DNA of 59,820 nt from Chloroflexota bacterium (GTDB taxonomy: Bacteria; Chloroflexota; Limnocylindria; Limnocylindrales; CSP1-4): positions 1-59,820 of the forward strand of contig JAJYNP010000348.1 of the NCBI GenBank assembly GCA_021786265.1. Direction: 5' to 3'. Below are positions 8,603 to 24,223 of the stretch, in pieces. A program made the position numbers and the translations under genes. The notes beneath the pieces are model-generated. The model worked only from the letters and a program-made list of their open reading frames with translations. It was not told the DNA's origin and did no database searches. Each line of letters starts with the position of its first letter. Positions within the stretch are counted from its first letter, which is position 1.

Positions 8603-8691
8603 CGACAGGTCGACGTCGGCACCCCGGGCGCCCGGGAGCATCGCCGAACGCGGGACCGCAGTGCTGCGCACCGAGCAGAATATGAGGAGAC

Positions 8692-9612: not shown

Positions 9613-9674
9613 GAACCGGACCCGACATCCGCACGTGGGTTTCGATCCATCGATCCGTCTTCATCCGGGACAGG

Positions 9675-10583
9675 ACCGTCTTCCTGTTCGAGTACGCCCG
9701 GTTCGATGCCCGGCGCGTGCTGGACGTGCTGGTGGACTGCCAGGTCCAGACGCTCTGCGCGCCGCCCACCGTGTGGCGCATGCTGATCCAGCAGGACCTC
9801 GCCGCCTGGCCGGTCAGGCTGCGCGAGCTGGTCGGAGCGGGGGAGCCGCTCAATCCCGAGGTCATCGAGCGGGTGCGGCAGGCGTGGGATCTGACGATCC
9901 GTGACGGCTACGGGCAGACCGAGACCACGGCCCAGATCGGCAACACGCCGGGCCAGCCGGTCAGGCTCGGTTCCATGGGCCGCCCGCTCCCTGGCTACCG
10001 GATCGAGCTGCTCGATCCCGACGGGCGTCCGGCGAGCGAAGGGGAGATCTCGCTCGACCTGTCGGCGGGGCCGCTGGGGCTCACGCCTGGCTACCAGGAC
10101 GACCCGTCGCGGACGGCCGACATGATGCGTGACGGCTTCTACCACACGGGCGACGTGGCCGGCCGCGATGCCGACGGCTACTACACCTACGTCGGGCGCG
10201 CGGACGATGTCTTCAAGGCCAGTGACTACCGGATCAGCCCCTTCGAACTGGAGAGCGCCCTGATCGAGCACCCGGCGGTGGCCGAGGCGGCCGTGGTGCC
10301 GAGCCCGGACCCGCTGCGCCTGGCGACCCCCAAGGCGTTCATCGCCCTGCGGGCCGGGTACGCGCCGTCACCGGAGCTCGCCCGCGACATCCTGCGGTTC
10401 TGCCGCGAGCGCCTGGCACCCTACAAGCGCATCCGGCGGATCGAGTTCACCGATCTGCCCAAGACCATCCCCGGGAAGATCCGCCGCGTCGAGCTGCGCG
10501 GCCACGAGCAGGCGCGACCGCAGCCGTTCACGCGCGCCGCCCTGGAGTTCTGGGACGAGGATTTCCCCGACCTCAAGGGCTGA
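9675..10583 (+). pseudogene. AMP-forming acyl-CoA synthetase, 5'-truncated remnant
   Basis: About 300 codons match the C-terminal half of an ANL-superfamily acyl-CoA synthetase. Visible motifs are the A5 block DGYGQTETT, the A7 block FYHTGDVAGRD, the hinge block YVGRADDVFKASDYRISPFE and the A10 block PKTIPGKIRR with the catalytic Lys. The N-terminal half, including the ATP-grasping Ser/Thr/Gly loop, is absent. Homology starts abruptly near 9675, only 62 bases after the proline dehydrogenase stop. An internal ATG at 9780 could start a 267-residue product, but it could not adenylate an acid. A deletion fusing the two regions is the simplest explanation. Confidence 0.8.
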
Positions 10584-10657
10584 CGGTCGCGCGCTTCATC
10601 GACGCTCTCAGTGCAGGATCGGCGCTCCTGGTGCCGACTCGCGTCGGCTGGGCCCGA

Positions 10658-10687
10658 TTGACGCTGCCGAAGGCGTGCCCGTAGAAT
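10658..10687 (+). promoter_or_regulatory. Sigma70-type promoter of tRNA-Gly
   Basis: TTGACG at 10658-10663 and TAGAAT at 10682-10687 are separated by 18 bases. The -10 box ends 15 bases before the mature tRNA 5' end, which fits a short leader. This is one of the two best promoter matches in the window. Confidence 0.7.
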
Positions 10688-10702
10688 CCCGCTGCTCTGC
10701 GA

Positions 10703-10778
10703 GCGGGAGTAACTCAGTTGGCAGAGTGCTTGCTTCCCAAGCAAGATGTCGCGGGTTCGAATCCCGTCTCCCGCTCCA
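10703..10778 (+). tRNA. tRNA-Gly(CCC)
   Basis: A full cloverleaf can be drawn. The acceptor stem is GCGGGAG with CTCCCGC and the discriminator is T. The anticodon stem CTTGC/GCAAG carries loop TTCCCAA, giving anticodon CCC. The T arm GCGGG/CCCGT has loop TTCGAAT, and the CCA end is encoded (10776-10778). It has its own promoter upstream. A transposase element lies about 40 bases downstream of the 3' end, leaving the tRNA intact. Confidence 0.97.
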
Positions 10779-10818
10779 GCTCCTGTTTTATCTGACTGGG
10801 AGTAGTGCGCCCCTGACC

Positions 10819-12413
10819 GGCTGTGTCACCCGAGCTGGCACGGCACATGGGCACGATCCGCCCATGGCGCGCACGACGTTCGATCCGACGATCGTCCGCC
10901 CAGGTTGTCCCGAGCATCCGGGCAGCCGGGTTCGGCTCGACGGCTTCCGGCGCTGCGAGTGGAGTGATGCCCATCGCCGGCCGCGGTATCGCTGCGTGAC
11001 GGTGCCGGGCACGCGGGGTCACTCGTTCAGCGTCCCGGTCGCGGTCCGCCAGCCGACCGAGCGCCACCCCGACTCGGGAGAGGCCTGCCCGACGTGCGAG
11101 CACGTGTACGGGCGCCACGAGGGCGTCAAGACTGGTCAGGACTTTGTCTTTGGCCACCAGGAGATCGCCCGGCTCTTGCTCCGCGTCGGCGAGGGCATGA
11201 GCCTGCGCGAGGCGAGCCGGGAGCTGCGCGAGTCGGTCTTCCGCGTCTGCCACCGGCATCGCCCGAGGCACCCGTTTCGGTCGATCCGCCCCGGCGAGAC
11301 GAGCCGTCAGGCGAACCTCGCGGTCAACTACCTCGACGCCTTCGCGCCCGCCGTCATCGCGGCGCTTCACCCGACCGAGTGGCCACGGGTGCTCGTGCTC
11401 GACACGATGACCCTGTTCACCCGCGGCTACCGGCGTCCGCGCAGCCGACCGGCCGACGGTGAGCCGGCCGAGATCCGGGTCGGCAGCCTCAAGGCGGGCA
11501 CGATCCTCATCGCCCTCGACGGGACCGCCCGCGGCGCCCGGCCCTGCCTCATGCGGGTCGCCGGCGGCAAGGACGCCGACAGCTGGCGGTCGTTCTTCGC
11601 GACGCTCGCGGGGACACCGGCGTTCGTCGTCGCCGATCTCGACGCGGCGATCGGGCGAGCGGTCCGCGAGACCTGGCCCGGCACGATCCTCATGCCCTCG
11701 CGCCACCACCTCGCCGCGCAGATGCGTCAGCGGGCGCTGGCCGACGGGATACCGGAGCGGATCCGGGCAGAGGCGCCGATCCCGACGGAGCGGTCGTTGC
11801 CCTGGACCGGCGAGCGCACGAAGCGTTGGGTCGACCGTCCGCTCCACGCGGCGATGCTGACGGCCCTCCGGGGACCCGCGGAGTGGGCGGCGTTCCTCGA
11901 TCTCGTCGAGCGGCACGTGCCGCCGGACCGGCTCGAGCTGCGCAGCTGGGTCGCGACCAACGAGCCGCTCATCCGTCGCCAGTGGCTGATCGCCGAGCGT
12001 CACCCTGATCTGCCGCGCTCGACCGGTGCCCTGGAGGGCGCGATCGGCGAGTGGCTGGCGCCGCTCCGGCGGCGGGCCGGCCGCTGGCAGAACGCCCGCC
12101 GGCTCAACCTCGTGCTGGGGTTGATCACCCTGCGCGGTCGGGGCGAGGCGCGCGAGGTCGCTACGCCGGGACCGTCCGGGCCTCGTTCGCGGCGCGCGCG
12201 AACCGCTCCCATCTTCTCGCCGAGAACGAGCTACCAACGGAGACGTACCGGGGCCAGGAGCGTCAGATGCGCCGGTGGCGGACGTGGCACGACCGCGCGG
12301 ACGCGTCGCTGCCGCGCCTCGTGCGCGAGGCCGACCGGCGCTGGCGGCGGCGCGCCGTCTCGGACCACGCCGCGCGGGTCAAGGGTTGAGTCCGTAGAGT
12401 TGGTGTAACAGGC
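10819..12413. mobile_element. Candidate insertion element of about 1.6 kb beside tRNA-Gly
   Basis: The element is defined by the transposase gene and by imperfect outward inverted repeats. GGCTGTGTCACC at 10819-10830 matches the complement of GGTGTAACAGGC at 12402-12413 at 9 of 12 positions. The repeats are short and no target duplication could be recognised, so the ends are tentative. The position directly behind a tRNA gene fits a typical insertion hot spot. Confidence 0.4.
10864..12408 (+). CDS. DDE transposase (IS256/MULE-like) with a frame change near the 3' end
   Basis: ATG at 10864 opens a protein with an N-terminal Cys/His region (VRPGCPEHPG..., then ACPTCEHVYGRHE) that may bind zinc. 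A DDE-type core follows: a first Asp in VLVLDTMTLF, a second in FVVADLDAAIGRAV followed by an H-rich RHHLAAQMRQ resembling the IS256/MULE C/D-x-x-H region, and an Ala/Ser-T-G-A-L-E-G block with the third acidic residue. The frame used here continues to 12408, but its last about 80 residues are Arg/Thr-rich and unnatural. The -1 frame from about 12160 to 12389 reads as an ordinary basic helical tail (RYAGTVRASFAARANRSH...). A one-base lesion or a -1 shift near GTCGCTACG is likely. The exact IS family is not certain. Confidence 0.75.
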   Translation: MARTTFDPTIVRPGCPEHPGSRVRLDGFRRCEWSDAHRRPRYRCVTVPGTRGHSFSVPVAVRQPTERHPDSGEACPTCEHVYGRHEGVKTGQDFVFGHQEIARLLLRVGEGMSLREASRELRESVFRVCHRHRPRHPFRSIRPGETSRQANLAVNYLDAFAPAVIAALHPTEWPRVLVLDTMTLFTRGYRRPRSRPADGEPAEIRVGSLKAGTILIALDGTARGARPCLMRVAGGKDADSWRSFFATLAGTPAFVVADLDAAIGRAVRETWPGTILMPSRHHLAAQMRQRALADGIPERIRAEAPIPTERSLPWTGERTKRWVDRPLHAAMLTALRGPAEWAAFLDLVERHVPPDRLELRSWVATNEPLIRRQWLIAERHPDLPRSTGALEGAIGEWLAPLRRRAGRWQNARRLNLVLGLITLRGRGEAREVATPGPSGPRSRRARTAPIFSPRTSYQRRRTGARSVRCAGGGRGTTARTRRCRASCARPTGAGGGAPSRTTPRGSRVESVELV

Positions 12414-12542
12414 GGGTGGCCGAGCGCGAAGAACAGCGGGGTGATGGCCGGAGCGTACGGGCTGGAGTCGCGGGTTGCCCAAGGCCCCAAGCTCGCTGCC
12501 GTCAGCGGCGCTCGAACCGGATGGACCTCGTGCGCCGGGGCG

Positions 12543-13283
12543 TCAGTGCTCGATCTCCTCCGGGGTGTCGTACCACGGCAGTCGCTCGCCGACCCGCGCG
12601 CGCGCCTTCCAAGACAAGGACTTTGGTGCGGCCGCAATGGCCGTGGTGAGTCGCGCCACCTGGTCCTCGACATCGTGAGGGGTGCCGGCGACCCGCTCGG
12701 CGACTGCAAGTTCCGCCACCTTCCCCAGGTTTCGCTCCACGGTGTGGCAGAAGCCCCAATCGGTGGCTAGCACCCGCGTGATCCGCCTGACGTCGATCGT
12801 GTCGTGCCCGCCTTCGGCGAGCGGATGATCGGCGAGGAGGCACAGCGCGTCGGCGACATCCTTGCGGTTGATCTCCCAGATCTGGAGCTTGGAGAGGAGG
12901 AGGTCGGCCAGCGGCAGGGTCGCGCCGGGTGCGGAGAGGCGGTCGCGCAGATCGAGCTCGTGGCTCATCTCAAGCCTGTCGAAGATCACGTCTATGGTCC
13001 AGGCGCCCGTAGGGGCTGCGTAGTACAAGCGGTGGGCTCCGTAGAGGGTGTTGAAGCGCTTGTCGGGCACGTAGCCCTCGCCCTCGAGGAAGGTTTGGAT
13101 CGCCGCACGGTCGTCCTTCCGCGCGACAAGATCGAGGTCGCCGTACGGTCGCTCGAACACGGGCGTGCGCACCGTCGGCGATGTGAGCCAAACCGCGAGC
13201 CCGCCCATCAACCGCGCGGGGCCCTTGCCCTCAGCAAGCAACGGCGCCAGACGTGACACCTCGTTGCGGACCTCGGACTCCAT
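12543..13283 (-). CDS. Nucleotidyltransferase-fold protein (AbiEii-like)
   Basis: Protein of 246 residues. The N-terminal part carries a minimal nucleotidyltransferase signature: a G-G in LMGGLAVWL at about residues 26-34, then an acidic pair in YGDLDLV about 20 residues later, and further D-V residues in WTIDVIFD. The rest is mainly helical. Proteins with this fold include MNT-type antitoxins and AbiEii-type toxins. There is no adjacent partner, so a toxin-antitoxin role cannot be claimed. The ATG at 13283 follows a good GGAGGAAAC site. It lies between the transposase element and the catabolic operon promoter, reading away from the operon. The family assignment is by fold motifs only. Confidence 0.65.
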   Translation of the reverse strand: MESEVRNEVSRLAPLLAEGKGPARLMGGLAVWLTSPTVRTPVFERPYGDLDLVARKDDRAAIQTFLEGEGYVPDKRFNTLYGAHRLYYAAPTGAWTIDVIFDRLEMSHELDLRDRLSAPGATLPLADLLLSKLQIWEINRKDVADALCLLADHPLAEGGHDTIDVRRITRVLATDWGFCHTVERNLGKVAELAVAERVAGTPHDVEDQVARLTTAIAAAPKSLSWKARARVGERLPWYDTPEEIEH

Positions 13284-13353
13284 GTTTCCTCCGTGCGGGG
13301 CTGCATCTGCCGGGGGCGCGGTGGTGACCCAGTGTAATGCGTAGAGATGACCG

Positions 13354-13382
13354 TTGCAATGTGGGAAACTGCTAGTTATGAT
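13354..13382 (+). promoter_or_regulatory. Sigma70-type promoter of the permease-kinase operon
   Basis: TTGCAA at 13354-13359 and TATGAT at 13377-13382 are separated by exactly 17 bases. Each differs from consensus at only one or two positions. Transcription would begin near 13389, about 54 bases before the permease start. It stands out in a GC-rich background and is the best promoter in the window. The DeoR regulator encoded by the second gene probably acts here. Confidence 0.7.
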
Positions 13383-13442
13383 GCCCGAAGATGCGCGGAC
13401 GACCCGCGTGCAGGTGATCTGGGAGGAGGACGGGGCGCGACC

Positions 13443-15035
13443 ATGAGCGTCGGCACGCAGCAGATCTTCGTCCGGAACTCGACCGGGCTCCGGAAGGAGG
13501 CCGGGACCTTCGACATCTTCGTCTACAACGTCAACAACCAGAACATCGGCCTGGGCGTCGCGTTCCTCTTCACGGCCGTGGCCGCCTATCCGGGCGGCAA
13601 CTTCCCGCTCTCGGCCATCCTCGGGAGCCTGCTCGTACTCCCCCTGTACTTCGTTTACTCACGTCTCTCGTCGGACATGGCGAAGTCGGGCGGAGACTAC
13701 GTGTGGACGAGCCGCATCTTTGGCCCACGCTGGGGACCAATGGTCGGCTTCACGCTCGCCTGGACCTGGTCGATTCTCGCGTTCACCGCGATCGGGGCGC
13801 CGGCCGCGTTCTTTGCCCAGCTCGGGGTCGCGGGCTGGATGCGCGCCCTCGGCGTCGCTACCGGCTCGACCGCCTTCATTGACATCGGCAACTGGGTGAG
13901 CAGCACGTTCGGAACCTTCGTGGTCGGGACGATCCTGCTCGTCCTCTTCACGTACATCCTCATCCGCGGCGTACGGACCTACATGCGGGTCCAGAACTTC
14001 GCGTTCTTGCTGGCGATGGCCGGCGTCGTGCTCGGGTTCGTCGCCGCGCTCGGGGCCAACTCGGGCGCCTTCGCAGGGCATTTCGACACGTACGTGACCG
14101 CGCTCGGGGGAATCGCGCACGCCTCGGCTAAGGTGACGTCCAACGCTCCCGCGACGAGCGGCTTCTCCGCTGAGTCCACGTTCTACGCGATGCTCTGGAC
14201 GATCTACATGGTCCTGTTCGGGGCCACGTCCTGCTACATCGGCGGGGAAGTGCGCAAGCCCGGCCAGACGCAGCGGATCGGGATGATCGGCTCACTCATC
14301 CTCACCGGCGTTTCCATCGCACTGCTCATCGTGGTCGTCCAAAACGCTGTGGGCCAGACGTTCCTGGCGGGCCTCGCCAGCACGCCCGCGTCCGATCTCG
14401 GGCTCGCCTTCAACCCGACCTACAACGAACTCCTGATGATCGCGATGTCGCCGAGCGTGATCTGGGCCGTTCTGCTCGGGTTCACCTTCCTCTTCTGGAC
14501 GTACGTCTGGATGCCGATCAACTTCTTCACGGCCACCCGCTTGATGCTGGCCCTGAGCCTCGACGGGTATCTGCCGGCGAGGGTCTCGGACGTGCATCCG
14601 CGGTACGCCACGCCTCACGTCGCGATCCTCATCGCGTTCGTCCTCGGGGAGCTCTCGATGATCCTCTACATCACGGGGATCCTCTCGGTGATTACACTGC
14701 TCTGGGCAGGCGTGGTGATGTTCGTGCTGACCGGTATCGCCGCGATCGTGTACCCGTATCGACTCCCGAGCGTCTGGCGGGCGGGCGGGGGTGGCCGTAT
14801 CGGAGGGATCCCGACGATCTCGATCTGGGGTGTCCTACTTGTTCCGGCCATGCTCATCGTGCTGTGGATTCTCTGGTTCGACCCGTTCGTCGGAATCGGA
14901 GCCAGCGCTCTGCAGATGACCTTGAACATCGGCCTTCCTGTGAGCGGGTTCCTCCTGTTCTGGGTGATCTACGCTGTTCGGAAGAGTCGTGGCTTCGATG
15001 TTCGGCTCTCTGCGACCGAGATTCCGCCGGACTAA
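13443..15035 (+). CDS. APC-superfamily amino acid/amine permease
   Basis: Protein of 530 residues with about 12 to 14 hydrophobic segments, an amino acid/polyamine/organocation permease. The N-terminal region FRK-like ...LRKEAGTFDIFVYNVNNQNIGLG leads into TM1, and a conserved-looking SGGDYVWTSRIFGP follows TM2, as in APC proteins where S-G-G-x-Y precedes TM3. The ATG at 13443 has a weak GAGGA-like site; the longer frame upstream overlaps the promoter and is rejected. As first gene of the operon it probably imports the substrate of the downstream enzymes. The presence of a ureohydrolase suggests a guanidino or amidino compound or an amine, which is inference. Confidence 0.88.
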   Translation: MSVGTQQIFVRNSTGLRKEAGTFDIFVYNVNNQNIGLGVAFLFTAVAAYPGGNFPLSAILGSLLVLPLYFVYSRLSSDMAKSGGDYVWTSRIFGPRWGPMVGFTLAWTWSILAFTAIGAPAAFFAQLGVAGWMRALGVATGSTAFIDIGNWVSSTFGTFVVGTILLVLFTYILIRGVRTYMRVQNFAFLLAMAGVVLGFVAALGANSGAFAGHFDTYVTALGGIAHASAKVTSNAPATSGFSAESTFYAMLWTIYMVLFGATSCYIGGEVRKPGQTQRIGMIGSLILTGVSIALLIVVVQNAVGQTFLAGLASTPASDLGLAFNPTYNELLMIAMSPSVIWAVLLGFTFLFWTYVWMPINFFTATRLMLALSLDGYLPARVSDVHPRYATPHVAILIAFVLGELSMILYITGILSVITLLWAGVVMFVLTGIAAIVYPYRLPSVWRAGGGGRIGGIPTISIWGVLLVPAMLIVLWILWFDPFVGIGASALQMTLNIGLPVSGFLLFWVIYAVRKSRGFDVRLSATEIPPD

Positions 15036-15041
15036 TCGGCG

Positions 15042-15812
15042 ATGCGTGAGGTCCGGCTTCAGCAACTCCGCGAAGCCGTCGTCGAGCGCGGGACCGTCTC
15101 GGTCCCGCGCCTGGCGGTCGAGTTCCAGGTCTCCGAGGAGACGATCCGGCGCGACCTCGATCGCCTCGGCGAGCTCGGCCTGGTCGTGCGCACCCGCGGT
15201 GGGGCAGCGGCGCCTGGCACATCGCTCACCGAACGCGACCTTCGCGTTCGGGCACAGGAGCATCTCCGCGAGAAGCGGGCGATCGCGCGAGCGGTCGTGG
15301 ATCGCCTCGTCAACACCGGAATCTCCATCGGTCTGGACTCGGGGAGCACGACCCTCGAGATCGCCCGCCTCCTCCGGCCCTGCCGGGTCACCGTGGTGAC
15401 CAACAGCCTCCCGGCGATCAACGAGCTCGCCGGAAGCGAAGCGACGCTCATCATCCTGGGCGGCACGTTCCGCTCGCAGTCGATGAGCGCCGTGGGCGCA
15501 ATGACGGAGCGGGCCGTGGAGCAGTTGCACTGCGACCTCGCCCTCATCTCCGCTCCGGCCATGACCGCGGACTATGGCCCGATGGACACCGATCTCGAGT
15601 CGATCGAGATCAAGCGGGCGCTCGTCCGCCGCGCTCGTCGCTCATACGCGGTCGTCGACCACTCGAAGCTCGGGCGGACCGCGTTCTCCACGATCTGCGA
15701 ACCCACCGCACTCGCGGGGCTCGTCACCGACGACGGGGCGACGGACGCCCAACTCGACACGTTCCGAGCCCTCGGGCTCGATGTCATCACGGGGACTCGA
15801 ACCGATGCCTAA
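15042..15812 (+). CDS. DeoR-family transcriptional regulator
   Basis: Protein of 256 residues. An N-terminal winged helix-turn-helix (about residues 3-57) has the DeoR signature VSEETIRRDLDRLGELGLV. A C-terminal DeoR sensor domain of the sugar-phosphate isomerase fold follows, with GLDSGSTTLEIARLL, VVTNSLPAINELA and a Lys-containing VVDHSKLGR. Regulators of this family usually respond to a phosphorylated sugar or its derivative. That fits the PfkB kinase three genes downstream. The gene starts 6 bases after the permease stop and its end overlaps the next gene by 8 bases. It probably acts as repressor at the promoter at 13354. Confidence 0.92.
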   Translation: MREVRLQQLREAVVERGTVSVPRLAVEFQVSEETIRRDLDRLGELGLVVRTRGGAAAPGTSLTERDLRVRAQEHLREKRAIARAVVDRLVNTGISIGLDSGSTTLEIARLLRPCRVTVVTNSLPAINELAGSEATLIILGGTFRSQSMSAVGAMTERAVEQLHCDLALISAPAMTADYGPMDTDLESIEIKRALVRRARRSYAVVDHSKLGRTAFSTICEPTALAGLVTDDGATDAQLDTFRALGLDVITGTRTDA

Positions 15813-16755
15813 CCCACCGCTCCCGAAGTCGAGCGAACTCGGTGTGATCCAATCCGGAGTCGCCACGTTCTTCGGCCGACCTCAGGCCACGCTTGACACC
15901 CTGAGCGGATACCGCTGCGCGATCGCCGGCGTGCCTTGGGATGAGGGAAATGCCGGACGCAACGGGGCAAACTACGGGCCGCGCGTCTTCCGCGACGCCT
16001 CGAGCTGGTTCCTCGGCTACGACGCGCAGCGTGGCTTCGACCTCTGGGAGGAACTCCCGACGGCGGACGTGGGCGACGTGGTCGTGCTGCCTCCGAATGC
16101 CGAGCGAACGATGGGGTTCATTGCCGACCACGTCGAGTCGGTCCGTCGAGGAGACGTGTTCCCGGTCCTGATCGGCGGGAACCACGCGCTCGCGATCGGC
16201 GCGGCCCGCGGCGCGGCTCGCACCGTGGGCCGCATGGGGTACCTCAGTGTCGACGCCCACCTCGACACGGCGCCCGACTGGCAGGGAGAGCGGTACATGA
16301 GCGGGTGCCCCACGTTTCGCGCAACCGAGATTCCCAACGTGGACCCGCACAACGTGGTGGTCTTCGGCGTCCACGGATGGCTGAACCCACGCTCGCAGGT
16401 GGAGGCGGCAAAGGCAGGCGGGATCAGCTGGTACGGCGTCGAGCGGATCGAGGAGATGGGCCTCGAGCGCGCGCTTGCCGAGGCGATCGCGGTCGCGTCA
16501 GACGGGGTCGACGGGCTCTACGTCAGCTTTGACCAGGACTCCATCGACGCCTCGCACTTCCCGGGGACGGGCACCCCCGAACCGGGCGGAATGTCGTCGC
16601 GGGACGCCCTCAAGGTGGCCCGCCTCCTTGGTCGGGCGCGCCCGATCGCGTACGACCTCGTGGAGCTCGCGCCGATCTACGACGTCTCGGGGATCAGCTC
16701 GCGCCTCTCCTGCGCGATCACGATGGCCTTTCTCTCCGGGCTGGTTGGGCGATGA
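15805..16755 (+). CDS. Agmatinase/arginase-family ureohydrolase
   Basis: Protein of 316 residues of the dinuclear manganese ureohydrolase family (agmatinase, arginase, formimidoylglutamase, guanidinobutyrase, guanidinase). All six metal ligands are visible: His in LIGGNHALAIG, the D-A-H-x-D of SVDAHLDTAP, and two Asp in SFDQDSIDASHFPGTGTPEP. The family usually has GGDHS and DP at two of these places, so GGNH and DA are small departures. The product would be urea plus an amine or acid, or an equivalent amidine hydrolysis. Start ATG at 15805 overlaps the regulator stop by 8 bases. The exact substrate cannot be read from sequence. Confidence 0.88.
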   Translation: MPNPPLPKSSELGVIQSGVATFFGRPQATLDTLSGYRCAIAGVPWDEGNAGRNGANYGPRVFRDASSWFLGYDAQRGFDLWEELPTADVGDVVVLPPNAERTMGFIADHVESVRRGDVFPVLIGGNHALAIGAARGAARTVGRMGYLSVDAHLDTAPDWQGERYMSGCPTFRATEIPNVDPHNVVVFGVHGWLNPRSQVEAAKAGGISWYGVERIEEMGLERALAEAIAVASDGVDGLYVSFDQDSIDASHFPGTGTPEPGGMSSRDALKVARLLGRARPIAYDLVELAPIYDVSGISSRLSCAITMAFLSGLVGR

Positions 16756-17609
16756 CGCAGAACGGCGGCGGGCTCCGCAAGCCCAACGAAATCGAGCTCG
16801 TCTTCGGCCGACGCGGGGCGCTTATCGGGATGCTTCACCTTCGGCCGCTGCCTGGGGCGCCCCGGTATCGGCCGGAGGAGGGCGTTGAGGCGGCGTTCGA
16901 ACAGGCGCTTCACGAGGCACGGCTCCTCGTCTCGGCCGGCTTCGACGGCCTGATCGTCGAGAACGGATGGGACATTCCGTTCGTACCGCCCGACCTCGTC
17001 GGGCACGAGACCACGGCCGCTATGGCCGTGATCCTGTCTCGGCTTCGCAGCGAGATCCGGGTGCCCATCGGCGTGAACTGTCTCGCGAACGCGGTTGACG
17101 CCTCGATTGCGATCGCGACCGCGGCCGGTGGCGCATTCGTTCGATCGAATCAGTGGGTCAATGCCTACGTCGCGAACGAGGGCTTCCTCAATGGGCGGGC
17201 CGGCGAGGTGAGCCGCTACCGCCATGCCATCGGCGCAGACGAGGTGCATGTCTGGGCTGACGTCCTCGTCAAGCTCGGGAGTCACGCGATCACCGCGGAC
17301 CGCTCTCTCGCTGAGCAGGTGCGCGACCTCGAGTGGTTCGATGCCGACGCGATCATCGTGACGGGGCGTCGTCTCGCCGACCCGCCCGTCGGGGACGATG
17401 TCGTGGAGGTTCGGGCGAGCACCGAGCTCGCCGTCGTCGTGGGTTCCGGGGTCAATGCCGACAACGTCGGGTCTCTCCTCTCGGTCGCCGACGGGGCGAT
17501 CGTCGGCAGCGCTCTCAAGGCGGGCGGTGTCTGGTGGGGCGAGATGTCTGCGGCGTCAGCCGAGGCGATCGCCCGGGCACGCGACACGGCCCTCGCTGTG
17601 CGCAGGTGA
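16752..17609 (+). CDS. BtpA/SgcQ-family TIM-barrel protein
   Basis: Protein of 285 residues of the BtpA family. Its marks are the N-terminal GALIGMLHLRPLPGAPRY, then GFDGLIVENGWDIPF, a central VPIGVNCLANAVDASIAIA, the segment VHVWADVLVKLGSHA, and a phosphate-binding-like C-terminus GSGVNADNVGSLLSVADGAI with IVGSALKAGG. The family includes the photosystem I factor BtpA of cyanobacteria and SgcQ of the enterobacterial sgc sugar operon. The barrel ending G-S-G-V-N plus V-G-S-x-x-K resembles phosphosugar enzymes. I infer an enzyme acting on a phosphorylated sugar or nucleoside. The ATG overlaps the previous stop by 4 bases (ATGA). Confidence 0.88.
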   Translation: MTQNGGGLRKPNEIELVFGRRGALIGMLHLRPLPGAPRYRPEEGVEAAFEQALHEARLLVSAGFDGLIVENGWDIPFVPPDLVGHETTAAMAVILSRLRSEIRVPIGVNCLANAVDASIAIATAAGGAFVRSNQWVNAYVANEGFLNGRAGEVSRYRHAIGADEVHVWADVLVKLGSHAITADRSLAEQVRDLEWFDADAIIVTGRRLADPPVGDDVVEVRASTELAVVVGSGVNADNVGSLLSVADGAIVGSALKAGGVWWGEMSAASAEAIARARDTALAVRR

Positions 17610-17622
17610 GGGTTGGGCGTTC

Positions 17623-18576
17623 ATGGGTAAGCAACTGAAGATCTTCTACGCGTCGGACATCCACGGCTCGGAGAAGGTCTTCCGCAAGTTCCTGAACGCG
17701 GCGCCGTTCTACAAGGCGGACGCCGTCATCTTCGGCGGCGATCTGACTGGCAAGGCCCTGGTGCCCCTTGTGGAGATTTCTCCTGCCCGCTTCACGGCGG
17801 CGGCGGCCGGGGTCGCCGGGGCGGTTGAAGGAGGCTCGGCGCTTGACACCCTCGAAGCGTCGATCCGAGCTCGCGGATCGTACCCGTACCGAACCACGCC
17901 TGAGGAGCTCGCGGCGATGAACGCCGATCCCGAGCTGGTTCGAGCGATCTTCCGGCGGGTCATGCGAGCCGGCGCCGAGCGTTGGGTCACGCTGGCCGAC
18001 GAGCGCTTGCGTGCTGCCGGCATTCCCGCGCTCATGATGCCCGGGAATGACGACGAGCCCGAGGTCAAGGAGATGCTCGCCCAGGGCGACTGGATCACCG
18101 ACGCCGAGGGCCGCTGCGTGGAGCTTGAGGGGTTTCAGGTAATCAGCTGGGGCTGGGCGACTGTCACGCCGTGGCATAGCCCACGCGAGGTCACTGAGGC
18201 GGGGATGGCCGCGGCGCTCGAACCGTTGGTGGGGCAACTGGATCTGAAGCGGCCCGTGATCTTCAACTTCCACGACCCCCCCAGCGAATCCGGGCTCGAT
18301 CTCGCATTCAAGATGACGTCCGACCTCAGGGTCGTGATGGCGGGCGGGCAGCCGGCGCTCGCGCCGGTCGGGAGTACCGCGGTCCGTGCGGTGATCGAGC
18401 GCATCCAGCCGATCCTTTCGTTGCACGGTCACATCCACGAGTCACGCGGGTTCACGAAGCTCGGCCGGAGCGTGGCCGTCAATCCCGGGAGTGCGTACAC
18501 CGATGGGACGCTCCAGGGTGTTCTCATCTCGCTGGACGACAAGAAGGTGCGCGGCCGGCAGCTCGTGACCGGTTGA
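17623..18576 (+). CDS. Calcineurin-like metallophosphoesterase
   Basis: Protein of 317 residues with the standard two-metal phosphoesterase motifs in order: YASDIHGS (D-x-H), FGGDLTGK (GD), MMPGNDDEP (G-N-D/H-D/E), FNFHDPPS (H) and LHGHIHES (G-H-x-H). A long insert between the second and third motifs (about residues 50-130) is helical. These enzymes hydrolyse phosphomono- or diesters. In this operon it could dephosphorylate or split an intermediate made by the kinase. It starts 13 bases after the BtpA gene and its stop overlaps the next gene (TTGA). Confidence 0.88.
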   Translation: MGKQLKIFYASDIHGSEKVFRKFLNAAPFYKADAVIFGGDLTGKALVPLVEISPARFTAAAAGVAGAVEGGSALDTLEASIRARGSYPYRTTPEELAAMNADPELVRAIFRRVMRAGAERWVTLADERLRAAGIPALMMPGNDDEPEVKEMLAQGDWITDAEGRCVELEGFQVISWGWATVTPWHSPREVTEAGMAAALEPLVGQLDLKRPVIFNFHDPPSESGLDLAFKMTSDLRVVMAGGQPALAPVGSTAVRAVIERIQPILSLHGHIHESRGFTKLGRSVAVNPGSAYTDGTLQGVLISLDDKKVRGRQLVTG

Positions 18577-19526
18577 GATCGGTGGACTCTTCCGTGGTCC
18601 CGGCTCGCGCCGCGCGGAGCGAAGGCAAGCCCCTGATCGCCGTCGTCGGGGACGCGGCGCTCGACATCTATCTCGCTCTCGAAAGTATGGTCGGCCCGGA
18701 CGAGAAGGTCACCGCGACGGACGGCGCGCGTTCGCTTGGCGGCACGGGAGCAAATGCCGCCGCGGCCGTTGCCCGGCTCGGCGGTCGTGCTCGCCTGCAC
18801 GCCGTTCTTGGCCGCGACGGCGCCGGAGACTGGATCTGGCGGGCGATCGCCGCCGCCGGCGTCGAAGTCGGCGGGGTGCAGCGGATCGCGGGTCGCTCGA
18901 CGATTGCGGTGATCGTGACGGCAGCGGGCCATCGCACGGTGATCGTCGATCGCGGCGTGGCAGATGAGGTGGTGCGGCTTGAGCTGCCGTCGATCATTCG
19001 TGGCGCAGCGCTCATCTACCTTTCTGCCGTTCCCATCGCGCTCGCGACGGCCGTGCTGACACACTCTCAGGTACCGGTCGTCGTTGGCATCGAGGCCCGG
19101 CAGGCGGAGGAGTTCGCGACAGTGGTCGGGCGGAAACACCTCGCGACGCTCCTCGGTCGAGCTGCCGCGACGATCACGAACGCGGCCGGAGCGGAGGCGC
19201 TGGCGACAATCCGGGCGCTCACGATGTCCGATGGACCACTCTCTGAGGTCCTGATCACGACGCGGGGCGCCGCAGGGTCGACGCTGCAGGTGCCCGGCAG
19301 ACCTGCGTTGGCGGTGCCTGCGCCCGTCGTTCAGGCCATCGACCCGACCGGTGCCGGGGACTGCTTCGCGGGCGCGTTCTGTCATTTCCTCGCCGCGGGA
19401 GAGAGCCTCGAACGAGCCACCAGACTTGCCACTGTCGCCGGGAGCCTCGCGACGACCAGGATTGGCGCGCAGGCATCATTGCCGACGGCGCAAGAGGTTC
19501 TCGCAGTGGCCGATGGTGAGCGGTGA
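18573..19526 (+). CDS. PfkB-family carbohydrate/nucleoside kinase
   Basis: Protein of 317 residues of the ribokinase family. The N-terminal substrate motif is SLGGTGANAAAAVARLGG and the C-terminal catalytic and anion-hole motif is IDPTGAGDCFAGAF, with the Asp base present. The family phosphorylates sugars, nucleosides and related alcohols. The TTG at 18573 overlaps the previous stop (TTGA); GTG codons at 18582 and 18594 are alternative starts. With the BtpA protein, phosphoesterase and a DeoR regulator, it suggests a sugar-containing intermediate. Confidence 0.88.
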   Translation: MRSVDSSVVPARAARSEGKPLIAVVGDAALDIYLALESMVGPDEKVTATDGARSLGGTGANAAAAVARLGGRARLHAVLGRDGAGDWIWRAIAAAGVEVGGVQRIAGRSTIAVIVTAAGHRTVIVDRGVADEVVRLELPSIIRGAALIYLSAVPIALATAVLTHSQVPVVVGIEARQAEEFATVVGRKHLATLLGRAAATITNAAGAEALATIRALTMSDGPLSEVLITTRGAAGSTLQVPGRPALAVPAPVVQAIDPTGAGDCFAGAFCHFLAAGESLERATRLATVAGSLATTRIGAQASLPTAQEVLAVADGER

Positions 19527-19773
19527 CGGGCGAAGCGGAAACTGGAGCCCTTGTCAAGCGACCGGCATGCGAGCTAGGCAGGTCCGGTTGCGAATCGTGT
19601 TCCATCAGTCGCCCCACCGACAAGGACACCTACGTGGCCTGCGAGACGGCCACGTACGACGACTACGCGCGGGCGTTCCCCGGCAGGGATCCCTCCGCCG
19701 TGTACTACTTCGCCAACAACTGGATCCATTTCCAGGTCCCGTCGCCGACCGCGGAGGAACTGAACCGGAAACC
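19523..19773 (+). pseudogene. Possible seventh operon gene, cut short by insertion-sequence debris
   Basis: GTG at 19523 overlaps the kinase stop as GTGA, the same spacing used elsewhere in this operon. About 84 codons follow, including a clearly protein-like stretch DDYARAFPGRDPSAVYYFAN and WIHFQVPSPT. I do not recognise the family. Just at the end of that stretch the sequence changes into direct repeats that look like insertion-sequence ends, and the frame then runs on through unnatural sequence. I read it as the intact start of a truncated gene. It could also be a relic of a deletion that brought a foreign gene end here. Confidence 0.35.
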
Positions 19774-19893
19774 ATCGGAACGGGTGTCCGGATTGGATCG
19801 GAACGGGTGTCCGAAAACCCTCGGAATCCGCAGTCCCGAGCCCGCGATGACGGGGAGATGTCTCCGAGGACACTCCGGTGAGATTGCACACAC
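19774..19893. mobile_element. Insertion-sequence end remnants (IS21-like repeats)
   Basis: ATCGGAACGGGTGTCCG occurs twice in direct orientation (19774-19790 and 19797-19813), period 23, followed by AAAACCCTCGGAATCCGCAG. Multiple short direct repeats of this kind with TGTCCG are typical of IS21-family ends. A second, different motif follows: TGTCTCC and GGACACT in inverted order near 19859-19876, then GTGAGATTGCACAC, which resembles another insertion-sequence terminus. No transposase is left. The naming of families is from memory of end patterns and needs a database comparison. Confidence 0.4.
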
Positions 19894-20127
19894 GTGCCCT
19901 CGACCCGTGTCAGGTACATCCCGTGCCCGCGCTCATGACCGTGCCGCCCACGACATGCCTGATCGCCCCCGATCTCTCGGACGCCGACGGCCCGCCGGGG
20001 GTGCCGCAGGCCTGCCGCGAGATCGTGGATCGACGCAACCCCCGATCCGCGATGGACACGGCGGCTATAGTCTGTCGAAGAAGGCAACCGATTCCCAGCC
20101 GACGTCCGCACTTCGAGGCGATCCTGC
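19894..20127. other. Intergenic region upstream of the PAS/EAL gene
   Basis: About 230 bases without a supported gene. The frames crossing it read as Arg/Pro/Thr-rich noise. A stop codon near 20067 in the frame of the following gene limits how far that gene can extend upstream. Confidence 0.4.
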
Positions 20128-22752
20128 TTGCGTCCCCGCGGCCACGCGACCCCGCACCAGGCTCCCCACACCCCCTCGGCCACGTCTCCACGGCCGCCCG
20201 TCTCGGCAACGCTGCCACCCGAGGCCGTCGCCGCCCTCGTCCTGACGCACGTCCACGACGGCGTCTTCGCCACTGATCTCGACAACCGGATCACGTTCTG
20301 GGGCCCCTCGGCCGCGCGCCTCTTCGGGTACTCCGGGTCTGAGGCCCTTGGACGCCCATTCGGCGAGTTGCTTCCCTTTCGAATCGATCGGGGCCAGGCG
20401 CAGAAGGATCTCCTCGCGGCGCTGGCAGACGGCCGGCCCTGGCGCGGCGAAGGGAGCGTCCGGCTGCGAGACGGCCGCGAGATCTGGATCGAGTCGACCG
20501 TCAACCCCATCACGGTCGACGGCCGCGTCATCGGTGGCGTGTCCGTCAGCCGGGACATGACCGCCTCGCGTGCCGAGGTCCAGGCGCGAGCGGCCGCGGA
20601 TCGCGCACGGCGAGCTCTCAGTGCGCTCAATCGCGTTCTCGTCCGGACCTCCGATGAAGTCACCCTGCTCGACGAGGTGTGCCGGATCGTGGTCGAGGCG
20701 GGAGGGTATCGGCTTGCCTGGGTGGGGTACGCGGAGGACGATGCGGCGTGCACCGTCCGCCCGATGGCCTCGGCGGGCCTGGACGCCGGTTATCTCGCGA
20801 GCGCACGGATCACCTGGGCCGACGAGCCCCACGGTCGCGGTCCCGCCGGGACGGCACTCCGGTCCCGGGGCCCGTCGGTGCTCCGCAACGTGCAGGATCC
20901 GGCCTTCGAGCCGTGGCTCGACGAGGCGCGACGGCGTGGCTTCGCGTCCGTCGCCGCGCTCCCGCTGACCTCCGGCGAGCGCGCCTTCGGCGTGCTCTGC
21001 GTCTACGCCGCCGAACTGGACGCATTCGGCGCGGACGAGCTCGACCTGCTGGTCGAGATGGCCAGCGACCTCGCCTACGGCATCACCGCCCGGCGCACGC
21101 AGGTGGCGCACGAGCAGGCGGTGGAGGCGACGCGGGCGTCCGAGGCGCGCTACCGGACGGTGGTGGACGCCCTGGCCGAAGGCGTCACGGTGCACGACGC
21201 GGACGGCACCCTGATCGCGGCCAACCGGGCGGCGCGGGCGATCCTGGGGTGGCGGACCAGCGGGGCGCTCCCGTCCCGCCTGCCCCCGGAGGCGATCCAC
21301 GAGGACGGCACGCCGTTTCCCCCCGCCGAATACCCAGCGCTGGCCACCCTGCGCACCGGGCGAGCCCGCCGTAACGTGATCCTGGGCCTCCGTCGACGCG
21401 GCGGTCGCGTCCGGTGGCTTGCTATCCACACGGAGCCACTCAGGTTGGACGACGGCCGGCGCGGGGTCGTCTCGTCGTTCGAGGACGTCACCCGTTACCG
21501 GACCGCCCGAGCCGAGCAGCTCCTCGAGGTCCGTCTCCGGGCGGCCCTCTCCGACGCCGTCCACGGCATGGTGCCCGGGGATTCCCTCCAGGCCAGCGCA
21601 CAGGCGATCTGCGACCAGGTCGCGACGCTGCCCGGGATCGACTTCGTCGGCGTTGGCGCCTTCCTTGGCCCGGACGAGATCCTGATCCTGGCGGGCCACG
21701 TGCCACCGGAGATACAGGGCCTGGCAGGAACCCGCCTCCCGCCGGAAGATGCGCGGCTCCTGGAGGAACGGACCGCGCAGGGGCCCTGGGCCCAGTACGC
21801 ACGCGAGCTCGCGGGGGTCGGCGCCTGGGGTCAGATCCTGGGCAGCGCCGGCATCGAGGCGATCGCCGTCGGGCCCATCGGGCACGGGCAGCATGTCGAC
21901 GGGGTGCTCGTCATCGGCACCTGTGACCGGGAGTTCGCCCGCACCCTGGTCGAGAAGCTGCCGGCGGTGGTGGCCTTCAGCACGACCTCGAGCGCCCTGC
22001 TGGCCGCGCGCATGCATGCGCAGCGCGAGGAGATCGAGCGGCGCCGTGCCCTCGAGCACGTCCTGGCCGTCGGGGCGTTTCACCCCGTCTTTCAACCCCT
22101 CGTCGACCTCGAGTCGCGGGAGGTCGTGGGCTACGAAGCGCTCACCCGCTTCGAGTCCGGTCGCCGCCCCGACCTGTGCTTTCACGATGCCTGGTCCGTG
22201 GGCCTGGGGCCGGATCTCGAGCTGGCCACGCTGGGGAGCGCCATCGAGGCCGCGCGCCGCCTCCCCGCCGGGCGATGGCTCGACCTCAACATCTCGCCCC
22301 GGCTCCTGCTCGACCCGGACCGGATCCGGGAGCGCCTCCTGGAGGCCGGTCGCCCGCTGGTGATCGAGGTGACCGAGCACGAGGCTGTGGCGGACTACGG
22401 CGCCCTCCGCGAGGCGGTCCGGACGCTGGGTCACGACCTGCGCCTTGCGGTGGACGACGCGGGCGCGGGGGTGGCGAACTTCGGCCACATCGTGGAGCTC
22501 CGGCCAGACTTCGTGAAGCTCGACATCAGCCTCATCCGCCGGGTCAACGCGAATCTGGGGCGTCAGGCGCTCGTGGTCGCCATGCGCCAGTTCGCCCGCA
22601 GCGCCGGCTGCCGGCTGATCGCCGAGGGGATCGAGACCGAGCTCGAGGCCGCTACGCTCGCCGGGCTCGGCGTGGAGTTCGGCCAGGGCTACCTGTTCGG
22701 CCGGCCCGAACCGCTCGAGCTGATCCTCGCGGCAAACGACCCGCGGCCCTGA
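20128..22752 (+). CDS. PAS-GAF-PAS-GAF-EAL cyclic-di-GMP phosphodiesterase
   Basis: Soluble protein of 874 residues. From the N-terminus: a PAS domain (about 35-145), a GAF domain (150-305), a second PAS (325-450), a second GAF-like segment (455-620) and an EAL domain (635-870). The EAL motifs are present: YEALTRF, NISP, EVTEHE, DDAGAG, KLDISL, EGIETE and a final QGYLFGRP. The loop usually written DDFGTG reads DDAGAG but keeps both metal-binding Asp, so hydrolysis of c-di-GMP is likely. No membrane segment is seen. The start is TTG at 20128; no ATG or GTG lies between the upstream stop and the PAS domain, so the N-terminus is uncertain. It is followed by a cyclase. Confidence 0.9.
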   Translation: MRPRGHATPHQAPHTPSATSPRPPVSATLPPEAVAALVLTHVHDGVFATDLDNRITFWGPSAARLFGYSGSEALGRPFGELLPFRIDRGQAQKDLLAALADGRPWRGEGSVRLRDGREIWIESTVNPITVDGRVIGGVSVSRDMTASRAEVQARAAADRARRALSALNRVLVRTSDEVTLLDEVCRIVVEAGGYRLAWVGYAEDDAACTVRPMASAGLDAGYLASARITWADEPHGRGPAGTALRSRGPSVLRNVQDPAFEPWLDEARRRGFASVAALPLTSGERAFGVLCVYAAELDAFGADELDLLVEMASDLAYGITARRTQVAHEQAVEATRASEARYRTVVDALAEGVTVHDADGTLIAANRAARAILGWRTSGALPSRLPPEAIHEDGTPFPPAEYPALATLRTGRARRNVILGLRRRGGRVRWLAIHTEPLRLDDGRRGVVSSFEDVTRYRTARAEQLLEVRLRAALSDAVHGMVPGDSLQASAQAICDQVATLPGIDFVGVGAFLGPDEILILAGHVPPEIQGLAGTRLPPEDARLLEERTAQGPWAQYARELAGVGAWGQILGSAGIEAIAVGPIGHGQHVDGVLVIGTCDREFARTLVEKLPAVVAFSTTSSALLAARMHAQREEIERRRALEHVLAVGAFHPVFQPLVDLESREVVGYEALTRFESGRRPDLCFHDAWSVGLGPDLELATLGSAIEAARRLPAGRWLDLNISPRLLLDPDRIRERLLEAGRPLVIEVTEHEAVADYGALREAVRTLGHDLRLAVDDAGAGVANFGHIVELRPDFVKLDISLIRRVNANLGRQALVVAMRQFARSAGCRLIAEGIETELEAATLAGLGVEFGQGYLFGRPEPLELILAANDPRP

Positions 22753-22990
22753 CGCGAGGCGCGGCCCGGTGTCGGTGGGCGCACCGCCCGTGGACCCGCC
22801 GCGCGACGGCCGTGGCCGAGATCCGCGCAAGAGCCCCGCGCAAGAGCCCCGCGCAAGAGGCCCCCTGACTTCTGGTGGATTCCTCGCGCCGCTGCCGTCA
22901 TGAAGACTGGCGGCCGAAGGAGAACCGCGCTATGAGGTCCGTGGGCGCACCCTCGCGCGCCATCGTAATGGTCCATGCGGGGGATCCGCG

Positions 22991-24223
22991 GTGATGCCGA
23001 TGGACGGCCAATCGACCGCGCTCCCCCGGTGGCTGGCCTTCCGTGTGGGCGCCATCGTGATCGCGGGGGCAGTCGCGCTCGCCTCGGTCACGCTGCTCGT
23101 GCCCGCCGATCCCCGCATCGGAGCGGCGTGGTCGAGCGTGATCGGCGGACACGCCACGTTGCTGGGCGTGCTGTTCTGGGGCGCGCTCACGCTGGTCGCG
23201 AGCGGCGTCAGCGCGGAGCTGCCGGAGGGGACCCGTCTCGTCTGGTTGCTGGCGCCCATGGTGACCACCATGAGCCTGGGCGGGCCGCTGGTGGCCGGCT
23301 GGGTGGCTGCGCTGGCCACCACGGAACCCCGCGAGCTGCGAGGCGGCGTGCCATGGTACGGGGTGCTCAACAACCACGCGGCCTTCGTGATCTCCGCGAT
23401 CCTGGGGGCCGCCACCATCAGCCTGGGACGATCGATCCTGGCCGGCCTCGGCCCTGGCGGGCCTTTGGGCGATCTCCTGGCGACACTGGCCGGTGGACTC
23501 GTCTTCGAGTGCTCGAACCTGGCGCTGACCCTGGCCACGGTGCGCACCGGGCGCTGGCGGCTGGTGCTCGCCGCGCTGCTGTCGCGCTCGTACCTGGCGG
23601 CCGAGGGCGCCCAGGTGGCGGTGGGCTGGCTGATGGCCCAGACCTACACCCACACGGCCTGGTGGACCCCGCTCGTCTTCCTCCTGCCCGCCCTGCTGGC
23701 CTGGCAGGCGTTCGACCGCGATCGGCTGCGCTGGGTCGCCGGGCACGACGTGCTGACCGACCTGGCGAACCGCCGCGAGTTCGGGGCGCGCCTGGCGGAC
23801 ACGGTGGCCGAGGCCCGCAAGGGGTTGCGGCCGAGTGTCCTGCTGATCGTCGACCTCGATGGCTTCAAGTCGGTCAACGACCGGCTGGGGCACGCCGCCG
23901 GCGACGCGGTCCTGCGTGCGGTCGCCGAGCGGCTGCGTGCCGCCACCCGCCCCGAGGATCATGTCGCGCGCATCGGTGGCGACGAGTTCGCGGTCATCCT
24001 CTCGGGCGTCCCCCGTAACGCCGCATCCCCCCTCGTGGGGCGTCTGCGGGCCGCACTCACGGCGCCGATACCCTTCGATGGCACCACCGTGTCGGTCGGC
24101 GCGTCGATCGGGATCGCAGGAGTCGACGACCGACCGCCCGACCCGGCGGACCTGCTGCGGCAGGCCGACCTGGCCATGCTCGAGGCCAAGGGTCGCCGTC
24201 ACGAGGGCCCGGGGCCCGCGTGA
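22991..24223 (+). CDS. Membrane GGDEF diguanylate cyclase
   Basis: Protein of 410 residues. About six to seven hydrophobic segments (residues 15-240) form an N-terminal membrane sensor. A cytoplasmic GGDEF domain (about 250-405) follows, with HDVLTDLANRREF, DLDGFKSVNDRLGH and an intact RIGGDEFAVI. An RxxD inhibitory site (RPED) sits exactly five residues before GGDEF, so product inhibition is expected. It makes c-di-GMP from two GTP. The start is GTG at 22991, with ATG at 22994 and 23000 as alternatives. It lies 238 bases behind the EAL protein on the same strand, giving a synthesis/breakdown pair. Confidence 0.92.
   Translation: MMPMDGQSTALPRWLAFRVGAIVIAGAVALASVTLLVPADPRIGAAWSSVIGGHATLLGVLFWGALTLVASGVSAELPEGTRLVWLLAPMVTTMSLGGPLVAGWVAALATTEPRELRGGVPWYGVLNNHAAFVISAILGAATISLGRSILAGLGPGGPLGDLLATLAGGLVFECSNLALTLATVRTGRWRLVLAALLSRSYLAAEGAQVAVGWLMAQTYTHTAWWTPLVFLLPALLAWQAFDRDRLRWVAGHDVLTDLANRREFGARLADTVAEARKGLRPSVLLIVDLDGFKSVNDRLGHAAGDAVLRAVAERLRAATRPEDHVARIGGDEFAVILSGVPRNAASPLVGRLRAALTAPIPFDGTTVSVGASIGIAGVDDRPPDPADLLRQADLAMLEAKGRRHEGPGPA

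Follow-up and report, generated by a model that had tools for sequence, protein, structure and literature searches.

The window analysed here is a stretch of 59,820 nucleotides from a Chloroflexota bacterium (assembly GCA_021786265.1, contig JAJYNP010000348.1), in which an earlier note, made from the sequence alone, had described positions 13354 to 19773 as a catabolic operon of six genes encoding an APC permease, a DeoR-family regulator, a ureohydrolase, a BtpA/SgcQ-family barrel, a metallophosphoesterase (MPE) and a PfkB-family kinase. All six are borne out as tightly packed, co-directional open reading frames (ORFs) on the + strand, with the gaps and overlaps that had been claimed (+6, -8, -4, +13 and -4 bases). 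A seventh conserved gene had been overlooked, which lies on the - strand at 12543-13283, divergent from the operon and 159 bp upstream of the permease gene, and encodes a nucleotidyltransferase (NTase). It is well supported that this NTase, the MPE and one subfamily of APC permeases form a unit, hereafter the module, that is widespread in bacteria and archaea and of which the window holds one example. Its parts in the window are the following:

12543..13283, - strand: nucleotidyltransferase of 246 aa, related to PF14907, with GG at residues 27-28, D49-x-D51 and D98
12555..12575, - strand: C-terminal motif W-Y-D-T-P-E-E of the NTase (family consensus W-Y-E-L-P-E-E; the window copy has the loose form only)
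13443..15035, + strand: APC permease of 530 aa (PF13520, 64.3 bits)
13473..13490, + strand: N-terminal permease motif R11-N-S-T14-G-L16, with R11, G15 and L16 invariant in alignment A4
15018..15032, + strand: C-terminal permease tail E526-I-P-P-D530 (family tail E[ILVM]Px[ED])
17623..18576, + strand: metallophosphoesterase of 317 aa, with weak calcineurin-type matches (PF14582, PF12850, PF00149)

The NTase scores 31.1 bits against PF14907 (cut-off 31.2), its only Pfam match, and carries the G[GS]...DxD...D motif in an NTase fold that characterizes minimal nucleotidyltransferases; residues G27, D49, D51 and D98 are invariant across 31 sequences. Its structure was predicted with a model pLDDT of 95, and a structure search placed the fold near those of ANT(2'')-Ia and LnuA and showed that it is also shared with MenT-type toxins; no solved relative of the NTase was found by sequence. 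The MPE combines the DxH, GD, GN[HD], H and GHxH motifs with fold matches of the calcineurin type, LpxH among them, and its residues D12, H14, D40, N142, D143, H217, H268, H270 and H272 are invariant in 24 relatives; no solved relative was found when the single MPE sequence was used as query.

To see how far this arrangement recurs, a species genome collection was scanned with a phosphoesterase profile (A1), and among the 486 stretches that encode a relative the best 79 loci (numbered with the prefix L) were kept. The full six-gene order is found in five of these 79 loci, namely L001 and L004 (Bacillota), L002 (Actinomycetota), L006 (Microbacteriaceae) and L007 (Mycobacterium, with the permease cut by the contig end), as labelled in the metagenome-assembled genomes; the gene order thus recurs, and the operon is not refuted by the condition that the earlier note had set, an order kept in no related genome. 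Identities between the same-order operons and the window are 60-63% for the permease, 68-70% for the ureohydrolase, 60-64% for BtpA, 63-66% for the MPE, 42-48% for DeoR and 36-38% for PfkB, and in these operons the NTase gene follows PfkB. A rearranged version occurs in Acidisoma (L016), where a GntR-UTRA regulator precedes PfkB, BtpA, permease, ureohydrolase, NTase and MPE in this order; DeoR gave no match there.

When the ORFs around the MPE genes were clustered, an NTase weakly matching PF14907 was found in most loci, and the window NTase is 31-49% identical to these neighbours of the MPE. By profile counts, the NTase lies within about 9 kb of the MPE in 60 of 79 loci and the permease in 72; among the loci with at least 5.5 kb of sequence on both sides, the figures are 38/40 and 40/40. 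The NTase profile used for the 9-kb counts was built from the same loci, and samples of whole genomes (numbered with the prefix G) are the fairer test; the counts in the two phylum-wide samples below rest on a limited number of candidates per genome and may miss weak copies. In 24 genomes chosen for holding an MPE, 29 NTases and 42 MPEs were found; for 27 of the 29 NTases there is an MPE at a distance of 8 kb or less, and the other two are near contig starts. The MPEs outnumber the NTases in some genomes (6:3 in G003, 5:1 in G024), and therefore one NTase could serve several permeases. A sample of 151 genomes drawn from across one phylum, that of G006 (which carries L009), is not fully independent, at least G006, G014 and G015 having been reached earlier through the MPE; it holds the NTase in 31 genomes and the MPE in 30, all 30 of them shared (Fisher value 8e-31, which ignores relatedness), with 39 of 43 NTases within 10.5 kb of an MPE. 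Three of the four stray NTases are on contigs with other genes known from module loci, and around the fourth (G077), which is 0.8 kb away from the end of its contig, the 8.4 kb seen contain no module-locus gene. Module permeases occur in 15 of 16 NTase-bearing genomes, G077 being the exception, and in the same sample only three of 50 genomes without the NTase-MPE pair (20 listed as such, 30 taken as pair-less from their absence among the matches) have APC hits, at 43-45 bits. A second sample took in 198 genomes from across the phylum to which G022, the source of L070, belongs. Here one and the same set of 27 genomes holds the MPE, the NTase and strong hits to the permease; the 17 others among the 44 with APC hits reach only 42-47 bits and were counted as lacking the module permease. 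Besides G022, one genome of this sample (G010) had been reached earlier through the MPE.

The module is also present in the archaeon Halobellus limi, as MPE DV707_RS16305, NTase DV707_RS18515 (annotated as hypothetical, 5e-85) and permease DV707_RS16315. Permease TRD_RS12760 and MPE TRD_RS12765 are found in Thermomicrobium roseum DSM 5159, where, in the 15 kb shown, the sole annotated NTase-domain gene does not match the module profile. That gene belongs to an annotated pair of NTase-domain and HEPN-domain genes on a plasmid of this organism (L128, 10329-11064), about 2.4 kb from the MPE.

The permease and the NTase further carry conserved short motifs at their ends. Among complete module permeases, 68 of 73 end in the strict form E[ILVM]Px[ED], which was met in the last 25 residues of only five of 3030 other ORFs, and a looser pattern covers 71 of 74; of the three without it, L028 and L064 look frame-shifted at the end and L040 ends in MLPPD. 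In the second sample the tail E[IL]P-x-[ED/E] closes 26 of 27 complete module permeases, the exception being L115 (QVPPE), while L098 is cut off. This tail, E-I-P-x-E, resembles the NTase's own end, W-Y-E-L-P-E-E, and the NTase frames carry the strict pattern in 47 of 70 cases and W[YW]xxP[ED] in 68 of 70. No such C-terminal tail was found in any of 88 MPEs, nor in the five complete control APC permeases (a sixth, L092, is cut off with its end unseen). At the other end of the permease, the motif R-x-[AST]-[TS]-G-L falls within the first 130 residues of the stop-to-stop frame in 66 of 70 module permeases, as against 12 of 3319 other frames; the remaining four permease frames start with out-of-gene sequence. 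Of the 95 motifs located, 92 have T as the hydroxyl residue and three have S, 12 of 107 permease frames not having been scored, and by eye no RxxTGL was seen in the first 110 residues of the control permease frames.

The genes that accompany the module vary widely. One type of cargo (L034 and similar loci) comprises a choline-kinase-family kinase, an iron-dependent alcohol dehydrogenase (Fe-ADH), an aldehyde dehydrogenase and DAO/aminomethyltransferase fusions; others consist of SIS genes with a LOG-like gene and BtpA (L038, L071), M24/creatinase-like genes (L029), a PF04199 cyclase (L009), PucR with a ureohydrolase, SDRs and a polysaccharide deacetylase (L003, with related genes in L065) or nitrilases (L045, L052), and at L057 the module stands with no cargo identified. 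Because many cargo enzymes cleave C-N bonds, it is a reasonable guess from the gene families that the solutes of the module are nitrogenous. The kinase of the L034 type (8349-9251 in L034) scores best against GntI, the pre-guanitoxin N-oxide kinase (204 bits, cut-off 357), and its substrate may be a compound other than choline.

This diversity bears on the role proposed earlier for the phosphoesterase, namely cleavage of the phosphosugar that PfkB would produce, as one step of a catabolic operon of six genes. The gene order kept in five of 79 loci speaks for that proposal, as does the position of BtpA beside the MPE there and in the window. In most loci, however, neither PfkB nor BtpA accompanies the MPE and permease, BtpA is present in just 13 of 57 module genomes, and the co-occurrence of NTase and MPE is near perfect, so that we consider this account of the operon highly improbable. 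The same MPE family, NTase and permease subfamily accompany very different catabolic genes, and the MPEs are 43-54% identical between cargo types, the permeases just 23-43%; both facts make it unlikely that the MPE is a phosphosugar enzyme of the pathway. A specific phosphosugar step was likewise rated low for the MPE, since it recurs with unrelated cargo.

Sequence identities were compared for the 53 of 80 sets (79 loci and the window) in which all three proteins were present under the score cuts. Between cargo types the mean identity is 23-43% for the permease (23-35% in 13 of 15 comparisons), 35-43% for the NTase and 43-54% for the MPE. The window NTase is 36-39% identical to those of the same-order operons and 31-45% identical to those of other cargo types, and is thus no nearer to the former; the NTase therefore does not follow the pathway substrate. 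The window MPE is nearest to that of L005 (69%), yet the permease of L005 is just 33% identical to the window permease. This pattern of conservation points to a common partner for divergent permeases, as judged from the alignments. It has to be weighed against the correlation of all three identities with one another (r 0.81-0.92), which shared descent would also give and which tells against a partnership of this kind.

These direct observations of gene content, gene order, three-way co-occurrence, shared motifs and intact active-site motifs suggest to us that NTase and MPE operate at the permease as a switch, by reversible nucleotidylation, and that ureohydrolase, PfkB and BtpA belong to the pathway as cargo, a reading that we favour tentatively, as nearly an even call. 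From the same features we infer physical contact between the proteins, the target of nucleotidylation, the switch and the substrate of the pathway. In this proposal the NTase would transfer a nucleoside monophosphate to the cytoplasmic N-terminus of the permease, where Thr14 of R-x-x-T-G-L is proposed as the modified residue by virtue of its conserved motif, and the MPE would remove the mark, whereby the import of nitrogenous solutes would be switched. The acidic-proline tails of permease and NTase would share one docking site, which the MPE most likely provides.

The same proteins could act on the solute instead of the permease. An NTase docked on the permease would then nucleotidylate a hydroxyl or amine of the incoming solute and so trap it, and the MPE would later cleave the phosphodiester, which would free or phosphorylate the solute for use by the enzymes of the pathway. 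The nearness of the NTase fold to the antibiotic O-nucleotidyltransferases ANT(2'')-Ia and LnuA, the docking tail on the permease and the kinases in two cargo types all suit this vectorial nucleotidylation, as does the presence of LpxH among the fold matches of the MPE, since LpxH cleaves a UDP-linked substrate. NTase and MPE do not track the cargo type, however, the cargo seems chemically too diverse to share an evident nucleotidylatable group, and we know of no cargo enzyme that uses a nucleotidylated solute, which together leave this alternative doubtful. Alternatively, the NTase might synthesize a signal that the MPE breaks down, or the pair might alter tRNA and reverse the change, along the lines of a MenT-type toxin, with the permease responding or being merely guarded. 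The fold shared with MenT-type toxins agrees with such a role, but the tie to one permease subfamily, the varied catabolic cargo and the tails common to permease and NTase would be unexpected for a toxin-antitoxin pair, and we regard it as rather unlikely.

The remaining genes of the operon and its control region are the following:

13284..13442, no strand: divergent intergenic region of 159 bp, carrying a promoter-like site
15042..15812, + strand: DeoR-family regulator (PF00455, 143 bits; PF08220, 55 bits)
15805..16755, + strand: ureohydrolase of the arginase family (PF00491, 220 bits)
16752..17609, + strand: BtpA/SgcQ-family barrel (PF03437, 212.7 bits, cut-off 30; TIGR00259, 199 bits, cut-off 153.4)
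18573..19526, + strand: PfkB-family kinase, nearest to ribokinase (PF00294, 121 bits; solved ribokinases as relatives)

The window ureohydrolase belongs to the arginase superfamily both by its PF00491 score and by its six His/Asp ligands, which the earlier note had called intact and which indeed are so at all positions (H127, D150, H152, D154, D243 and D245). It scores 136.8 bits against the agmatinase model TIGR01230, below the curated cut-off of 174.3. Its best solved relatives by sequence are 9fek, 7esr ('agmatinase 2') and metformin hydrolase subunits; by this sequence similarity, the guanidine hydrolase GdmH, whose hydrolysis of guanidine is Ni-dependent, and the metformin/dimethylguanidine hydrolases are its closest solved relatives, with the same metal ligands. 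They include nickel enzymes (PMC11399263), and manganese, which the earlier note had named as the metal, is putative. The metformin hydrolase genes adjoin the nickel chaperone genes hypA/hypB (PMC11399263), whereas no chaperone of the hypA/hypB type was seen among the Pfam-scanned window ORFs at 8661-24223. Tandem ureohydrolase genes occur in the module loci L024, L025 and L127 (G045) and recall the alpha/beta pair of metformin hydrolase (PMC11399263).

Among the window proteins, only the BtpA/SgcQ subfamily model was reached at NCBIfam cut-offs, and BtpA exceeds the cut-offs of both PF03437 and TIGR00259. Its C-terminal segment, of a phosphate-binding type, matches tryptophan synthase alpha, and a search for solved relatives by sequence gave matches solely through this segment. 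By coordinates, 11 of the 14 BtpA genes in the 57 module genomes have an MPE no more than 5 kb away, and in protein searches 32 of 119 tabulated BtpA relatives could be paired with an MPE relative by an equal length of the longest contig, as against 1-3 when the lengths were shifted. A second setting of BtpA in module loci is seen at L038 and L071, beside a LOG-like (LDcluster4) gene and two SIS genes, which suggests a tie to sugar-phosphate or N-glycoside chemistry. The PfkB protein lies within the PF00294 superfamily but scores 116.7 bits against the ribokinase model TIGR02152, below its curated cut-off of 299.65; its start may be GTG at 18582 instead of TTG at 18573.

Because of the ureohydrolase relatives ('agmatinase 2' and the metformin hydrolases), the phosphate-binding segment of BtpA and the ribokinase-like PfkB, the probable task of the window cargo is to break down a guanidino compound of which one part can be phosphorylated, and a sugar-like part is plausible. 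The ureohydrolase would release urea from the imported compound, PfkB would phosphorylate its hydroxyl or sugar part, BtpA would act on the phosphorylated product and DeoR would regulate the operon.

Of the promoter described as 'near-consensus', the site itself exists (TTGCAA-17-TATGAT, 13354-13382), but the wording was generous for a match of 9/12, with one such site found against 0.4 expected in shuffled sequences; a search of the divergent intergenic region for a clear operator gave just weak inverted repeats. The last 247 bases of the reported range hold just the start of an ORF at 19523-20245 without a Pfam match. At 19523-19860 its short beginning overlaps the PfkB stop and is followed, by eye, by repeats of a CGGAACGGGTGTCCG-like unit, possibly as a gene remnant. 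Further downstream on the same strand, at 20128-24223, lie PAS/GAF/EAL and GGDEF proteins, presumably c-di-GMP enzymes, and just upstream of the NTase gene an ORF of 577 aa (10675-12408, + strand) without a Pfam match looks transposase-like by eye.

A close functional precedent for the proposed switch is GlnD, a uridylyltransferase/uridylyl-removing enzyme in which an NTase is fused to HD phosphodiesterase and ACT domains and which works with PII and AmtB. In both cases an NTase and a phosphodiesterase would reversibly mark a protein that governs the uptake of nitrogen compounds. Unlike in GlnD, the NTase and the hydrolase of the module are separate proteins and the hydrolase is of the calcineurin type and not HD; an APC permease is the transporter, and the window locus showed no PII-like protein. 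A 246-aa NTase that matches PF14907 only, with a separate MPE of another fold, lowers the case that the module is a GlnD, not that it works like one. The fructoselysine frl operon pairs an APC permease with a PfkB kinase or an SIS deglycase and is not known to include an NTase, MPE or ureohydrolase; the window resembles it in having an APC permease, which matches the FrlA model weakly (32.7 bits, cut-off 800), together with PfkB, and one cargo type has SIS genes. In structural alignments ANT(2'')-Ia and LnuA share 10-16% identity with the module NTase, which differs from them in standing among catabolic genes, next to a permease and an MPE. The MenT nucleotidyltransferase toxins (PMC10435456), which in MenAT systems modify tRNA and have a MenA antitoxin next to them, share the fold of the module NTase by structure search and differ from it in that its steady neighbours are the permease and MPE in catabolic clusters.

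Each protein is of a known superfamily, and the assembly of permease, NTase and MPE is apparently undescribed. Searches confined to the open literature, which extended to the joining of ureohydrolase, PfkB and BtpA and to the nucleotidylation of APC permeases, gave no account of such a module among the matches listed. If the assembly proves to be a GlnD-like switch, a variant of a known principle would be the fairer description. It is possible rather than probable that the module represents a new class of transporters in bacteria and archaea, in which an APC permease would be controlled or driven by a dedicated NTase and MPE docked on its cytoplasmic ends via E-[IL]-P-x-E, the Thr of R-x-[AS]-T-G-L would be reversibly nucleotidylated, and catabolic cassettes would be plugged in, here one for a guanidino compound.

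The near-perfect co-inheritance of the permease subfamily with the NTase and MPE points to an uptake system of an unfamiliar kind, of which we know no example in the literature. Nucleotidylation of the permease by the pair would amount to a novel way of controlling a transporter directly, and nucleotidylation of the solute would add a new type of group translocation. Association with the module places BtpA/SgcQ in a fixed setting, and either reading gives a handle on hundreds of genes whose present annotation goes no further than metallophosphoesterase, hypothetical protein or APC permease.

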